Positions 39,861 through 51,480 of a DNA stretch of 64,000 nucleotides are shown piece by piece (within the stretch, counting starts at the first letter, position 1; each line of letters opens with the position of its first letter). The notes beneath the pieces are model-generated. The model was given only the letters and a program-made list of their open reading frames with translations, did not search any database and was not told the DNA's origin. This DNA comes from Bacteroidetes bacterium GWF2_38_335 (GTDB taxonomy: Bacteria; Bacteroidota; Bacteroidia; Bacteroidales; GWF2-38-335): assembly GCA_001769535.1 (NCBI GenBank), contig MEOH01000024.1, positions 1-64,000 of the forward strand, in the 5' to 3' direction. A program made the position numbers and the translations under genes.

Positions 39861-40490
39861 TTACAATTCTAAACGGTTGATTCCGGCTTTCCAGTTTCTG
39901 TTAAAGATGGCATCTGTGAGTTTCAAATAGTCCTTGTTGTGCAAAACAAAATCAATGTTTTCAGTATTAATTACCAGAATTTTCATACCGGGTTCCTGCC
40001 TGAAATAAGAGAAATAGCTGTTTTGTATTTTTTCCAGATAATCTGCAGTTATCTGCTGCTCATAATTGCGGCCTCTCTTTTTTATGTTTTCCAACAGTTT
40101 TTCGGTCCCAAGATGCAGGTAAACAAAAAGATCCGGACGGGGTAAAGAGCTGTAGACAATGTCGAAAAGCTGTCTGTAAAGATTGTATTCATCATCAGCC
40201 AGAGTGTTGGCAGCAAAAATCAATGATTTCATAAAATAGTAATCTGATACAATCATAGAAGAAAAAAGATCAAGCGAGGCAAGCTCTTTTTTAAGCTGGT
40301 TATATCTTTCGGCAAGAAAGGATAATTCAAGCGGAAAAGAATATCTTGCCGGATCCTGATAAAATTTTGGCAAAAAGGGGTTGTCTGCAAATCTTTCAAG
40401 TACCAGTTTTGCCTTGTAATCATTTGCAATCCTTGTGGAAAGGGATGTTTTTCCCGCTCCAATATTCCCTTCTATTACCAGATAATTCAA
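39861..40490 (-). CDS. deoxynucleoside kinase
   Basis: VIEGNIGAGKTSLSTRIA; dNK family. Confidence 0.9.
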   Translation of the reverse strand: MNYLVIEGNIGAGKTSLSTRIANDYKAKLVLERFADNPFLPKFYQDPARYSFPLELSFLAERYNQLKKELASLDLFSSMIVSDYYFMKSLIFAANTLADDEYNLYRQLFDIVYSSLPRPDLFVYLHLGTEKLLENIKKRGRNYEQQITADYLEKIQNSYFSYFRQEPGMKILVINTENIDFVLHNKDYLKLTDAIFNRNWKAGINRLEL

Positions 40491-40499
40491 TTTCTGTTT

Positions 40500-42656
40500 T
40501 TATTTGTATGGCGTAATTCCCATATTATAAAAAGTGAATGCCCAAACGTCAGCATTTTCTTCAATAAGCTTTGCCGTGGGTTTGCCCGATCCGTGTCCTG
40601 CCATCACATCAACCCTGATCATAACCGGATTGTCTCCTTTACATTTTTTCTGTAATTCAGCAATGTATTTAAATGAATGTGCCGGCACAACCCTGTCATC
40701 GTGATCGGCTGTGGTAACCAGAATTGCCGGATAATTTGTGTTTTCGGTTATATTGTGCAAAGGAGAATATTTGAAAATGTACTTAAATTCTTCTTCATTG
40801 TCAGAACTTCCGTAATCTCCAACCCAGTGCCAGCCAATGGTAAATTTCTGAAACCTGAGCATGTCCATAACTCCCACTGCGGGCAAAGCAACCTGAAATA
40901 AATCGGGGCGCTGGTTTACACAGGCGCCAACCAGCAATCCACCGTTTGACCCGCCTTTTATTGCGAGTTTTCGCGGATTGGTGTATTTTGATTTAATTAG
41001 ATATTCGGCTGCAGCAATAAAATCATCAAAAACGTTTTGTTTTCTTAGCTTGGTTCCGGCTTCATGCCAGTCTCTGCCATATTCTCCGCCACCGCGGATG
41101 TTGGCAAGTGCATAAACGCCTCCGTTTTCGAGCCAGATAATATTTGCAATACTGAATGACGGGGTGCGGCTCACATTAAATCCTCCGTAACCATAAAGCA
41201 ATGCCGGGTTTTCTCCATCTAGTTTCAATCCTTTTTTGTGAACAATAAACATGGGCACTTTTGTACCGTCCTTGCTTTCATAAAATACCTGGGTGGTTTC
41301 ATACTGTGAACCATCAAAATTGATTTCGGATTTGTAAAACTCTGTGGACTCATTTTTTGTGAAATCATATTTGTAAATTACAGATGGATAAGTAAATGAA
41401 TTAAAAGTGTAATAAGCAGTTTTGTCATCTTTTTTTCCGTTAAATCCGTCAATTGATCCTAATGCCGGAAGTTTTATTTCCCTTTCAAAAATTCCATTGT
41501 AATTATACATATACATTACGTTGTGGGCATCTTTCATATAAACTGCGATCAGTTTTCCGCCGGCAAAAGTGACAGATTGCAGTACATCCTCAGTTTCAGG
41601 GAGTACAACTTCCCAGCTTTGTGGCCTGATATCGCGCGTATTTATTTTTATCAGTTTGTAACGGGGAGCTTCAAAGTTTGTCAGTATGTAAAGATCTTTG
41701 TCAATATTTCCAACAAGTGAAAATTCAAAGTCGTATCCAAGATTCAGACTGATCAAACGGGAATCCTCCTGGGTAAGATCTTTGAAATATAGTACATTTC
41801 CCTGTGAGGCTTCTGATTCATACATCATAAGAAATTTCTCATCATCAGTAACTGAGGCATTAAAATTTCGTTTGGGATTTTCTTTATCTCTGTGAACAAG
41901 TACATCTTCTTCCTGTTTAGTTCCTAGTTTGTGATAATACAGCTTGTGAAATTCATTGCTTTTTGAAAGAGCCTTTCCTTCCTCGGGAGCATCATATCGA
42001 CTGTAATAAAAACCATCTTTGTACCATGAAATACCTGAAAATTTGATCCATTTCAAATGATCTTCAAGGATTTTTCCTGTCTGAATCTCCAAAACAAAAA
42101 TTTCATTCCAGTCTGATCCTCCTTTAGAAATAGCATAGGCCATGTATTTGCCATCTTTCGAAAAATCAAGGTTTCCAAGTGATGATGTGCCTTCAGTTGA
42201 CATGGTGTTTGGATCGAGAAGGATTTTTCCTTCCTTTTCGGGATCATCAGTCATGTACAGCACAGATTGGTTTTGCAGTCCGTCGTTTTTATAATAAAAA
42301 TAGCGGGAGCCTTCCTTAAAAGGAGCGCTTCTCCGGGGGTAATCCCAGATTTCGGTAAGGCGGCTTTTTATTTTTTCCCTGAAGGGGATCTTTTCTAGAT
42401 ATCCGAATGTAAATTCGTTTTGCTTTTTCACCCATTCGGCTGTTTCTTTGGAGTTGTCGTCTTCAAGCCATCTGTATGGATCGGGGACAGCTGTTCCGAA
42501 ATACACATCGACACTGTCAACGGTAGTGGTTTCTGGGTATTTGTACTTGCTTTTCATTTCAGGTTTAATTGTGCAGGCAAAAATGATTGCCGTTAAAATC
42601 ATTATGACAGATTTAATCATGATGGATTTTTTTAAAAAATTAGTTACAGTTTTCAT
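40500..42656 (-). CDS. prolyl oligopeptidase family S9
   Basis: PDPYRWLED; IKGGSNGGLLVGA catalytic Ser motif. Confidence 0.93.
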   Translation of the reverse strand: MKTVTNFLKKSIMIKSVIMILTAIIFACTIKPEMKSKYKYPETTTVDSVDVYFGTAVPDPYRWLEDDNSKETAEWVKKQNEFTFGYLEKIPFREKIKSRLTEIWDYPRRSAPFKEGSRYFYYKNDGLQNQSVLYMTDDPEKEGKILLDPNTMSTEGTSSLGNLDFSKDGKYMAYAISKGGSDWNEIFVLEIQTGKILEDHLKWIKFSGISWYKDGFYYSRYDAPEEGKALSKSNEFHKLYYHKLGTKQEEDVLVHRDKENPKRNFNASVTDDEKFLMMYESEASQGNVLYFKDLTQEDSRLISLNLGYDFEFSLVGNIDKDLYILTNFEAPRYKLIKINTRDIRPQSWEVVLPETEDVLQSVTFAGGKLIAVYMKDAHNVMYMYNYNGIFEREIKLPALGSIDGFNGKKDDKTAYYTFNSFTYPSVIYKYDFTKNESTEFYKSEINFDGSQYETTQVFYESKDGTKVPMFIVHKKGLKLDGENPALLYGYGGFNVSRTPSFSIANIIWLENGGVYALANIRGGGEYGRDWHEAGTKLRKQNVFDDFIAAAEYLIKSKYTNPRKLAIKGGSNGGLLVGACVNQRPDLFQVALPAVGVMDMLRFQKFTIGWHWVGDYGSSDNEEEFKYIFKYSPLHNITENTNYPAILVTTADHDDRVVPAHSFKYIAELQKKCKGDNPVMIRVDVMAGHGSGKPTAKLIEENADVWAFTFYNMGITPYK

Positions 42657-42767
42657 GAGTCAGGTGCAAATTTATTAAGTCCTTGCTATTTAACAAAGAC
42701 TTTGGCTTATTTTTGGTATTATTATCTGCTGATAATTCTTTTTTTTGACTTTTTTTTAAAAGATTCT

Positions 42768-42775
42768 TATCTTTG
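42768..42775 (+). promoter_or_regulatory. Bacteroidetes -7 element (TATCTTTG)
   Basis: TAnnTTTG upstream of the S46-like gene. Confidence 0.55.
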
Positions 42776-42789
42776 AAATTGCATTACTT

Positions 42790-44952
42790 ATGAGAAACTA
42801 TATGAAAACTAGGATATTTCTGTTGATATTATTATATCTGGCTACTTCATTTAATATTTATGCCGATGAAGGAATGTGGCTTTTTTCTTCATTGACAAAA
42901 CAATATAATAAAATGAAGGAAATGGGACTCAGATTATCTGAAGAGGATATTTACAATGAGTCAAAACATTCACTGACAAATGCAGTGGTGAAATTCGGGG
43001 ATAACGGAACGGCAGTGTTTATATCTGAAAACGGATTGCTGCTCACTTCATATTATAATTCGTATGCCTATATACAAAGACTTGGAACACTTACAAATAA
43101 TTATGTTTCTGATGGTTTTTGGGCAGAAAACAATCAAACCGAGCTCAGGGTTAACGGATTATCTGTGAAGGTATTGATTAAAACTGTTAATGTGACCAAT
43201 GCTTTTATTCCGGTTTTGAATGACGAAATGACTGAAGGGGAAAGACAGGAAAAAATTTCAAGAATTACCGCCGAACTGGTTAAGAAAGAGAAAACAAAAC
43301 CTTTCTATGATGCCGAAGTGAAATCTTTTTATAATGAAAACATGTTTTGCCTCTTTGTTTATGAAGTTTATGAGGATGTCAGACTGGTGGGTGTTCCCCC
43401 CGTTTTTATAGGTAATTTCGGCGGAGATAGTGATAACTGGACCTGGCCCAGACATTCAGGTAATTTTGCGCTTTTCAGGGTTTATGGTAAACCCAATGGG
43501 GAACCTTCTGTCTTTTCCCTTTCGAACATTCCGGTTAAGCCACATAAATCTGTTCCCGTTTCAGGAAAAGAAGTGAAGGAAAATGAATTTTGTTTTACTG
43601 CCGGGTTCCCTGCATCTTCTAAAAGGAATATTTCCAGACATGGTCTGCGCCCTCAAATTCAGGGAACTTTTGCGGCTATTGTAAAACTGAAATCCGGCAT
43701 ACATAATATTCTTAGTGAAAAAATAAATAATGACAGAAATATTTATTTTAAATATGAGCCAAAGTTCACAAGTAACAATAACCTATTGAAATACTACAGG
43801 ATTCTTGCTGAAAAACTTGGGAAAAGCAAAATTCTGGAATCGAAGCAGGACGAGGAGGATAAGTTCAGGGTATGGGCAGCACGCGACGATCAGAATACCA
43901 GAAAATATGAACAAAGCCTGAGTAAAATAATGCAGTTTAATAAGGATCTTGAGGAGTACCATCTTTTTAAGGTTTATTCCGGGGAATTCCTGAAATCGGG
44001 ACCAGCCGCAGTTGCGCTTGCTTATGAATTCATCCCGCTTTATAAGGAGTTGGGTAATACAACAGGCACATTTAAAAAGGATTCTGTTATTAATTCATTA
44101 AAAGAGAAAACAACCGGATATGCTACAATTTTTGATGAAAGTACTGATAAGGCTTTGTTTATTTTTCTCATAAAAAACTTTTATGAAGATATTAAACCAT
44201 TGAATCATCCGGCCGCTTTCAATGAAATTAGTAAAAAATTCAAAAATGATTACACTAAATACACCAATCAGGTGTATTTGAAAAGTATTTTCAGCGACCT
44301 TGCCGCTTTGGATAAATTTCTTGCGGCGCCCAGTGCTGAAGTGCTTGATAATGATCCGATTTTCAAACTTGTTTTTTCAATTTACGGAAGTCTCAATAAA
44401 TTGGAACTTTCCAAGCATGATGCACTGATAAATCTCGGACGCGAAAACAGAATTTATCAAAAGGGAATTCTGGAAATGAAAAACAAAGATGACCAATATC
44501 CTGAGGCCAATTCATCTCTTCGCTTTTCTTATGGCAAAGTGAAGGGCTATAGCCCCGGAAATGCCGTGAAACTTGGATATGTTGCCAGATTAAGCGGAAT
44601 GCTTCAGAAATACGATGATTCCGTTCTCGATTATTTCCTGCCCGAAAAGTATGTTGAGACTTATAAAAAAGGTTTGTTCAGCGATAAAACATTCAATCAG
44701 GAAAATATCCCGGTTTGTTTTATAACCGATAATGATGTGCTGACCGGCAATTCGGGAAGTCCGGTTATCAATGGTCATGGCGAGCTAACCGGAATAATTT
44801 TTGACACCAATGAGGATGGTATTCTTGGAGAATATATTTATCTCCCTGAAAAGCAAAGAGCTATTGCTGTTAGCACCCGGTTTATTCTTTTAATTATTGA
44901 GAAATATTCCAATGCCGGATATTTGATAAAGGAGATGAATGTGGTGAAATAA
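42790..44952 (+). CDS. S46 (DPP7/DPP11) family protein, predicted inactive
   Basis: MWLFSSLTKQYNKMKEMGLRLSEEDIYN and TGNSGSPVINGHGELTGIIFD; but LTSYYNSY and SGNFALFRVY replace the usual TNHHCGY and TGDFSxFR motifs. Confidence 0.85.
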   Translation: MRNYMKTRIFLLILLYLATSFNIYADEGMWLFSSLTKQYNKMKEMGLRLSEEDIYNESKHSLTNAVVKFGDNGTAVFISENGLLLTSYYNSYAYIQRLGTLTNNYVSDGFWAENNQTELRVNGLSVKVLIKTVNVTNAFIPVLNDEMTEGERQEKISRITAELVKKEKTKPFYDAEVKSFYNENMFCLFVYEVYEDVRLVGVPPVFIGNFGGDSDNWTWPRHSGNFALFRVYGKPNGEPSVFSLSNIPVKPHKSVPVSGKEVKENEFCFTAGFPASSKRNISRHGLRPQIQGTFAAIVKLKSGIHNILSEKINNDRNIYFKYEPKFTSNNNLLKYYRILAEKLGKSKILESKQDEEDKFRVWAARDDQNTRKYEQSLSKIMQFNKDLEEYHLFKVYSGEFLKSGPAAVALAYEFIPLYKELGNTTGTFKKDSVINSLKEKTTGYATIFDESTDKALFIFLIKNFYEDIKPLNHPAAFNEISKKFKNDYTKYTNQVYLKSIFSDLAALDKFLAAPSAEVLDNDPIFKLVFSIYGSLNKLELSKHDALINLGRENRIYQKGILEMKNKDDQYPEANSSLRFSYGKVKGYSPGNAVKLGYVARLSGMLQKYDDSVLDYFLPEKYVETYKKGLFSDKTFNQENIPVCFITDNDVLTGNSGSPVINGHGELTGIIFDTNEDGILGEYIYLPEKQRAIAVSTRFILLIIEKYSNAGYLIKEMNVVK

Positions 44953-49005: not shown

Positions 49006-51480
49006 ATGAGATGGGTCAAAGTTTTTAATATTATAATATTTTTATTTTTCAGCTTTACTTTTTGTAAAGCGCAGTTAGTTGCAGATACCTTTAATGTTCC
49101 GCAATATCACATACCTGATATCTACTATACCGAGTTTGCGCCTGAGCTTCCAGCGACTGTAAACAATCGCCTTTCACCATTTTTTCCACCCGATTTCTAT
49201 AAACAGAACTTGTCAAACTGCAATCAGGCTGCTGGCCACTATTACTGTTTAACCTACCAGTTTAACAGGTTGCTTAATCGTACGGCAGATTCACTTAGTT
49301 GCTTCTCCCCAAATTACACCTATAATTTTTTAAATGGGGGAAATGGATGGTACGGGGCAAGCACTTTTGACACATGGAATATCGTTAAAAGTCAGGGCAA
49401 TCCAACGGAGGCAATCTTTGATGGTTATAAAGACAACTGGGAAGACGAAGATGAAATCTTTTTTGAAGGAAAATATTGGATGAATAGTTATGACAAATAC
49501 TATCAGTCAATGAAATACAGAATAAAGGACTATTATTCCCTCGATGTTTCTACAGATGAAGGCCTTAAAATGCTGAAGCATTATTTAAGCGATCACTTCG
49601 AAGGGGCAGAAAATGGTGGGGTTGCAGTTTTTTTTTCTGGATTTGGTTATCTATATGGGGCTCCTTTCGGATATGTTTACGATTCGTGTATTTCATATCC
49701 CTTTGATCGATTGTGTGTTTTTAATAATGCAGATAATGGATCCAACCACAGTATGACCATTGCAGGATATTATGAGAATACTGAAGTTGACTTTAACGGA
49801 GACGGGATAATAACTGATACCCTTGATCTAAATTCTGACGGAAATGTGAATTATCTTGATAACGAAAAAACACTCTGGATCATTGTTAACTCTTATGGTG
49901 AGTTTGAAGGAAAAGGTGCATTTTTATTGAGATACAGTCAGCTTACTAAAATATGGGACAAAAAAGTTTTTATCCCCATTCCAGATACAGCCTACACCCC
50001 GAAACTTACTTTTAAAATCAGGTTGAAACATAACCAACGAAATACAATTAAAATTTCTGCGGGAATATCTTCTGATTTGAAGTCTGAAATCCCTGAAAAA
50101 ATTATTGATTTTCCAATCTTTAATTACCAGGGTGGAAACTGGCCACTCACCGGAGTAGACACATTGTCTGTGTCTGAGGAACTTGAATTTGGAATTGACA
50201 TCACAGATATTCTGGATTACTTGGACACAAAAGGCATGGCAAGAATATTTTTTCGATTGGAAAATGCAGGTCATCGATCCGGAGAACTGGAGTATTGTTC
50301 TCTTATGGATTATTCAGGCGAAGAGGTCAGAGAATATGTTTTTACTGACCAGCCTGTAACTGTTCCTCCAGCACAACTGTTTGAATTATATCTTGATATA
50401 CCTCTTCAAACAAACGCCTCAGAAGAAAAATTAAATATTGTAGGAGATAACCGTTTAATCATTTTCAAGGGCGATAGTTTAAATCATCAAATTTCATTTA
50501 CTGGAGGCAGTCCGCCGTATAAATTTAAAATAGTAAATACTGCAGAGTATGAAATTGAACTAACAAACCGGGATTATACTTATTTGTCAACAGGATTTAC
50601 TTCCATAAACAACGAGTACATAACACTTGACTGGCCATTTCCATATGCAGGGGAATTTTTTGATTCTGTGGCAATATCCACCCGTGGAACATTAACATTT
50701 TCAGAAAAAAAACAACTGACAGAAGAAATTTATCCCTATAATTTTTTTAAGGAAGCTGTTTACGAGGATATTACAATTAGCGCATATAATGGATATTTTT
50801 TCACCGATGAACTGAAATCAAAGTATTTTTTAACCGATAGCTCATTCATTGTTTGGCACAGAAGATATACTTCATCATTCCGAATGGTATCAAGAATAGA
50901 ATTATTTAAAGATGGCAGAATTGAAATCTACTTCATGGATTCCCTGGGATCATATAGTACAAATGACCTTGCAAGACACTTTGGCATCTCAACCTATTCA
51001 GGCCAATACTTTTCGCAACAAATTCCATTAGAATTGGCAGGGGATTTTAACACCACTATTTTTAAGCCTAAACCTCAAAGTTCCCTATTTAGTCTTAGCA
51101 ATGATGGTTTTCTTGAAATGCCAAACACCAGTTACCCCGGCAAGCACCAGTTGCATGTTATGGTGATAGACTCAACCGGGGAAAAAGCCGTGAAAAGGTT
51201 TGAAGTTGAAATCCTTGACAGGGCACTCGATCTTGCACTCTATCCTAACCCTGCAAGCGAGCAGGTTACAATCTCACTCAATTCTCTGGAAAACAACACT
51301 GCTGAAATAGATATATTTGATATCAGCGGCAAACTGCTCCTTTCAAAACAAAATGATGTTATTCCCGGCAAGAATGAATATTTGTTAGATATCTCGATGC
51401 TTTCTGATGGGATATATCTGTGTAAAATCAAAAACTCTAATTTGAGTAAAACATTAAAATTTGCTGTATTAACGGAATAA
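49006..51480 (+). CDS. papain-like (C1-type) secreted protein with T9SS sorting domain, paralog 1
   Basis: Signal peptide; FSPNYTYNFLNGGNGWYGASTFDTWNIVKSQG; NHSMTIAGYY; TLWIIVNSYGEFEGKGAFLL; C-terminal LALYPNPASEQVTISL...SDGIYLCKI. Confidence 0.7.
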   Translation: MRWVKVFNIIIFLFFSFTFCKAQLVADTFNVPQYHIPDIYYTEFAPELPATVNNRLSPFFPPDFYKQNLSNCNQAAGHYYCLTYQFNRLLNRTADSLSCFSPNYTYNFLNGGNGWYGASTFDTWNIVKSQGNPTEAIFDGYKDNWEDEDEIFFEGKYWMNSYDKYYQSMKYRIKDYYSLDVSTDEGLKMLKHYLSDHFEGAENGGVAVFFSGFGYLYGAPFGYVYDSCISYPFDRLCVFNNADNGSNHSMTIAGYYENTEVDFNGDGIITDTLDLNSDGNVNYLDNEKTLWIIVNSYGEFEGKGAFLLRYSQLTKIWDKKVFIPIPDTAYTPKLTFKIRLKHNQRNTIKISAGISSDLKSEIPEKIIDFPIFNYQGGNWPLTGVDTLSVSEELEFGIDITDILDYLDTKGMARIFFRLENAGHRSGELEYCSLMDYSGEEVREYVFTDQPVTVPPAQLFELYLDIPLQTNASEEKLNIVGDNRLIIFKGDSLNHQISFTGGSPPYKFKIVNTAEYEIELTNRDYTYLSTGFTSINNEYITLDWPFPYAGEFFDSVAISTRGTLTFSEKKQLTEEIYPYNFFKEAVYEDITISAYNGYFFTDELKSKYFLTDSSFIVWHRRYTSSFRMVSRIELFKDGRIEIYFMDSLGSYSTNDLARHFGISTYSGQYFSQQIPLELAGDFNTTIFKPKPQSSLFSLSNDGFLEMPNTSYPGKHQLHVMVIDSTGEKAVKRFEVEILDRALDLALYPNPASEQVTISLNSLENNTAEIDIFDISGKLLLSKQNDVIPGKNEYLLDISMLSDGIYLCKIKNSNLSKTLKFAVLTE

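Follow-up and report, generated by a model that had tools for sequence, protein, structure and literature searches.

An S46-family protein lacking the catalytic His and Asp in a Bacteroidales genome: a candidate periplasmic peptide-binding pseudopeptidase

S46 dipeptidyl-peptidases feed peptide-eating Bacteroidota and have been proposed as antibiotic targets. The stretch of DNA analysed here (64 000 nucleotides, referred to as the window) encodes an S46 homolog that was described in an earlier note as an intact, full-length pseudopeptidase with its own promoter, lacking the catalytic His and Asp but keeping the Ser, and perhaps acting as a binding or regulatory protein. Can such a protein still cleave peptides, and what might it do otherwise?

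The open reading frame and the quoted peptides were recovered exactly as given earlier, and the description as intact and full-length was borne out. The frame was open, Pfam Peptidase_S46 (PF10459) matched residues 25–717 over profile positions 1–697 of 698 (562 bits), and an AlphaFold model (57-sequence alignment, pLDDT 85.9, pTM 0.86) contained the complete S46 fold; the full-length profile match and the two-domain fold place the protein in the S46 homology family. A PDB search with the model returned 31 significant matches, all of them S46 (TM by query length 0.77–0.88), and the closest by TM-score was the dipeptide-bound FpDPP11 (5jxf). The NCBIfam Dpp7 equivalog NF053519 matched residues 8–719 with 481.8 bits, below its membership threshold of at least 1200. 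A related-locus search of the genome collection returned only S46 proteins from other phyla, which served as the tree outgroup and as the alignment for the fold model. Judged from its more usual signal-peptide beginning (MKTRIFLL...), the ATG at 42802 is perhaps the true start. The protein has a likely signal peptide followed by ADEGMW, a mature start typical of the family, and mature P. endodontalis DPP11 begins at the equivalent Asp22 (PMC8048996). The GC content of the gene was 0.366 against 0.37 for the window; recent horizontal gain was rejected, the base composition giving no sign of it. The promoter proposed earlier was matched by a promoter-like site of the Bacteroidota type that stops 15 nt upstream of the first ATG. 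Across the window the pattern occurred four times, where chance alone would give 2.3, and two of the four matches lie in the 133-bp divergent spacer; on its own the pattern is weak evidence.

Table 1. Positions of the S46 gene, its active-site residues and adjoining features in the window (residue equivalences from the alignment with PgDPP11).
Feature	Position	Strand	Basis
Divergent neighbour, S9 prolyl-oligopeptidase family	40500..42656	-	ORF + Pfam; neighbourhood association only
Divergent promoter-like site, S9 gene	42667..42697	-	pattern match
Promoter-like site TTTG-N20-TATCTTTG (Bacteroidota type), S46 gene	42744..42775	+	pattern match
Putative S46-family pseudopeptidase ORF, 720 aa	42790..44952	+	ORF + PF10459 + AlphaFold + PDB matches
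Likely signal peptide MKTRIFLLILLYLATSFNIYA, cleavage before D26-EGMW	42802..42864	+	sequence
Gly73 replacing PgDPP11 Cys69 (Cys-pair position beside catalytic His)	43006..43008	+	alignment
Ser87-Tyr88-Tyr89-Asn90 replacing Asn83-His84-His85-Cys86; catalytic His lost (Tyr89)	43048..43059	+	PgDPP11 alignment
Asn216-Trp217, substrate amino-group recognition, kept	43435..43440	+	alignment; roles from PMC6753110
Asn225 replacing catalytic Asp227	43462..43464	+	PgDPP11 alignment
Asn331 (PgDPP11 Asn333), amino-group recognition from helical domain, kept	43780..43782	+	alignment
Thr652-Gly653-Asn654-Ser655: Ser nucleophile and oxyanion Gly653 kept, Gly652 to Thr	44743..44754	+	alignment
Asp672 (amino-group recognition, kept) and Thr673	44803..44808	+	alignment

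Active-site residues were numbered by alignment with PgDPP11 (4xzy), whose catalytic triad is His85, Asp227 and Ser655. The second His of the NHHC motif (His85) was Tyr89 in the window protein, the first (His84) was Tyr88 and Cys86 was Asn90; Asp227 was Asn225, and the Ser of GNSGSPV, Ser655, was retained. The His-Asp-Ser triad of active S46 dipeptidyl-peptidases was thus represented by Tyr89, Asn225 and Ser655, in agreement with the earlier reading, and the loss of His and Asp removes the triad chemistry. No new His was common to the window protein and its same-genus ortholog (L017), the shared ones being the family's own His222 (of PRH) and His473, and with both catalytic residues missing and no compensating His the term pseudopeptidase held at the sequence level. 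Chance or sequencing error was ruled out as a source of the TSYYN stretch, since several substitutions are required to produce it, the frame is uninterrupted and the S-Y and S-G-N-F-A changes recur in a genome of the same genus.

In PgDPP11 and SmDPP7 the amino group of the substrate is recognised by four residues (Asn218, Trp219, Asn333 and Asp672; PMC6753110, PMC8041751), and the window protein has all of them, as Asn216, Trp217, Asn331 and Asp672. Both members of the Cys69/Cys86 pair, presumably a disulfide as judged from the chymotrypsin fold, were replaced. The S1 pocket was altered (Gly652 to Thr, 673 to Thr, Trp675 to Glu). Position 673, which is Gly in DPP7 and Arg or Ser in DPP11 (PMC8048996), was Thr in the window protein and Ile in L017 and matched neither subtype.

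The source genome holds four S46 genes besides this one, each with its triad intact, and their products were only 32–36% identical to the window protein; five S46 genes were likewise found in the one further genome of the genus that was sampled. In a tree built without the active-site columns these ten genes formed five orthologous pairs with full support, and the window protein and L017 made up one clade (support 100) sharing the Asp to Asn change; both reading frames are open (720 and 711 aa, respectively). L017 carries SYHC and SGNFA, that is, the Asp is already Asn and the catalytic His is still present; as the ortholog has TSY and GNF in common with the window protein while its His85 remains, loss in the genus was probably stepwise, with the Asp going first and the His later. 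The earlier question whether an orthologous clade has the TSYY and GNF substitutions in common was thereby answered in part: TSY and GNF are present in the one same-genus ortholog, and the last Tyr is not, its place being taken by His85. The pair was 35% identical against 65–69% for the four canonical pairs, its branch lengths were 1.35 and 2.56 against 0.18–0.38 for canonical orthologs, and the two genes had no gene neighbourhood in common.

The distribution of the Asp to Asn change was examined by a DNA-level search for W-P-R-[HQ]-x-G-N-F. Only the window gene and L017 matched among 393 genomes of the order, and among 396 genomes of the phylum the matches were the window gene and one protein, L150, which was rejected as a further S46 since the match falls in an unrelated protein. 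No S46 with the motif was found beyond the window gene and L017 in 783 distinct sampled genomes of the phylum, and the G-D-F version, used as a positive control, was matched in 50 of 60 relatives.

Further deviants were sought by profile searches in which just two or three candidates were scored per genome, so that rarer members may be missed. Three more S46 proteins without the catalytic His (His to Asn) were found in three other families of the order (L057, L178 and L183). All three lack both Cys and keep the amino-group quartet, and each of their genomes holds three to four other S46 genes. In L178 (G098:C152:4095-6260, minus strand), natural His85 to Asn and Ser655 to Ala changes are combined (SHNS, GSAGS), Cys69 and Cys86 are both Ser and the quartet is kept; on its sequence this is the clearest dead S46 among those found. 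L183 (G145:C42:82148-84295, plus strand) has SHNF in place of NHHC together with GCSGS, and L057 (G343:C194:4364-6517, plus strand) likewise has SHNF; both retain Asp and Ser and have lost the Cys pair. These three formed a clade (support 99) with L016 (G027:C307:25556-27712, plus strand), which has AHHCS and GSSGCP and an intact triad. L016 was rejected as a dead member, only its active-site setting being unusual, and, as it branches basally to the His-less proteins, it is perhaps an intermediate. The quartet was intact in the window protein, L017 and the four further deviants. L230, which had appeared odd in the motif scan, was rejected because its Ser is present, and two S46 matches that each contain a single in-frame TAG (G046:C219:10695-12839 and G042:C142:29338-31443) are possible pseudogenes or assembly errors.

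Losses were counted at the 77 columns that were invariant in 80 canonical S46 proteins, split into 13 of the catalytic set and 64 others; the catalytic His and Asp were kept in 80 of 80, including all four paralogs of the source genome. The window protein has lost 19 of the 77, of which 8 of 13 were in the catalytic set versus 11 of 64 elsewhere (p 0.002). The corresponding losses were 6/13 versus 1/64 in L057, 7/13 versus 2/64 in L178 and 6/13 versus 3/64 in L183 (p from 2e-5 to 5e-4); all these p-values are partly circular, the deviants having been chosen by motif, a reservation that does not extend to the scarcity of losses outside the catalytic set in L057, L178 and L183. L017 showed no such concentration (4/13 versus 16/64, p 0.45), so that fast evolution in the genus is general and not confined to the active site. 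Altogether, the five triad-deficient proteins have 47 of the 77 invariant columns intact in common, and four columns picked at random would all be among these with a probability of 0.13; retention of the quartet is therefore not significant by itself.

Whether the dead proteins arose once or twice was addressed with trees. In the tree without L017 the window protein grouped with L016 and L057 (support 99), and in trees with L178 and L183 added the pair of window protein and L017 went to a canonical group, also with support 99. The AU test did not reject a single clade of window protein, L017, L016, L057, L178 and L183 (p 0.33). N83 and G277 are changed in all six of these, against at most one of 80 canonical proteins, and these shared changes favour a single origin; the long branches warn against relying on either tree. 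We put forward tentatively, as a rather doubtful generalisation, that the order holds an old, sparse S46 pseudopeptidase lineage in which a dead fold works in the periplasm as a receptor for free peptide N-termini or as their carrier, its branches having lost Asp, His or Ser separately while the amino-group clamp was kept.

For the window gene itself we infer, with confidence that is about evenly balanced, inactivity, binding and a physiological role: its product would be an S46 pseudopeptidase, secreted to the periplasm, that still grips peptides by the N-terminus without cutting them. Such a protein would have been derived from a DPP7/DPP11-type dipeptidyl-peptidase through gene duplication; the catalytic Asp, whose loss is common to both species, would have been lost first in the genus, and in the window lineage the catalytic His would then have gone, together with the two Cys of the adjoining pair. 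Acyl-enzyme formation by the classical triad would no longer be possible, and since the two-domain fold and the four amino-holding residues are intact, the protein most likely continues to close on the N-termini of peptides while leaving them uncut, and would act as a periplasmic peptide-binding protein (carrier, buffer or sensor) beside four active paralogs. For dead Ser to Ala mutants, as used in crystallography, binding of dipeptides and tetrapeptides is seen both in crystals and calorimetrically (PMC5460201), so an S46 protein without catalysis is able to bind peptides. Of the earlier 'binding or regulatory' proposal, the 'binding' half is favoured by the retained amine-binding residues. 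Counting against a binder, the altered S1 pocket might block ordinary peptides, and constraint is possibly relaxed, as suggested by the 35% identity of the orthologs against 65–69% for canonical pairs.

Relaxed selection could also mean that the gene is unneeded and becoming a pseudogene, and the very long branches in both species and the loss of 19 of 77 invariant columns point that way; this is nevertheless improbable, given frames of 720 and 711 aa that stay open in species about 67% identical in their other S46 proteins, the retention of GNSGSPV, fold core and quartet, the high-confidence full predicted fold and the promoter-like site. About as improbable is a dead subunit that regulates or scaffolds the active paralogs by forming heterodimers with DPP7 or DPP11 and altering their activity. 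S46 structures are homodimers and dimerisation has been reported (PMC8041751), and canonical partners are at hand in the source genome (four paralogs) and in all other genomes with His-less S46 (three to four), but the window protein is only 32–36% identical to its paralogs and its gene is not paired with any of them. That the window protein is still a peptidase, with Ser655 served by another base or by substrate assistance, appears very unlikely: Ser655 and the oxyanion Gly653 are retained, and L017, which also keeps His85, might have weak activity, but the window protein and L017 share no new His beyond His222 and His473, and neither the invariant Gly652 nor the Cys pair is preserved.

Among known systems, PgDPP11 and FpDPP11 (Asp/Glu-specific; PDB 4xzy, 5jxf) share full-length homology, the two-domain fold, Ser655, Gly653 and the quartet with the window protein, which differs from them in lacking the catalytic His and Asp, Cys69 and Cys86, in having Thr for Arg673 and in being only about 30% identical. 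DPP7/DAP BII (hydrophobic P1) shares the fold and its Dpp7 profile spans the window protein, but the score lies far below the cut-off, the specificity Gly is Thr and the triad is lost. The laboratory mutants PeDPP11 S652A and PgDPP11 S655A (PMC5460201) are likewise dead S46 proteins, with an intact binding cleft, but were engineered at the Ser, whereas the window protein has lost His and Asp naturally and L178 shows natural Ser to Ala and His to Asn changes. MamO (PMC4794232) and CspC (PMC6636752) also reuse a peptidase fold after loss of catalysis; they belong to different peptidase families, and the window protein has no metal-binding His cluster. Inactive homologs are common among peptidase families, and the metallopeptidase case has been reviewed (PMC11266112).

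No description of S46 pseudopeptidases was found in the open-access literature, a scope outside which most subscription papers lie. Nemoto and colleagues are said to have distinguished a 'third group' of S46 in Bacteroides. If the proposal is true, S46 proteins that grip the ends of peptides without cutting them would add a new type to the periplasmic peptide-binding proteins. The S46 sequence family is annotated wholesale as peptidases, and non-cutting members would mislead genome-based predictions of activity. The natural series (Asp lost; Asp and His; His; His and Ser) would lend itself to study of the transition from enzyme to binder.

The divergent S9 neighbour has a 75% identical ortholog in the sister species (G001) with no S46 gene adjacent, and the order of the deoxynucleoside kinase and S9 oligopeptidase pair (window 39861-42656, minus strand) is conserved there (L221), again with the S46 gene absent. 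A functional partner assigned by gene neighbourhood was rejected, the neighbours of the other dead S46 genes being unrelated. Further along the window (49006-51480, plus strand) lies the gene for a secreted protein whose C-terminal sorting domain is of the Por secretion (type IX) kind.
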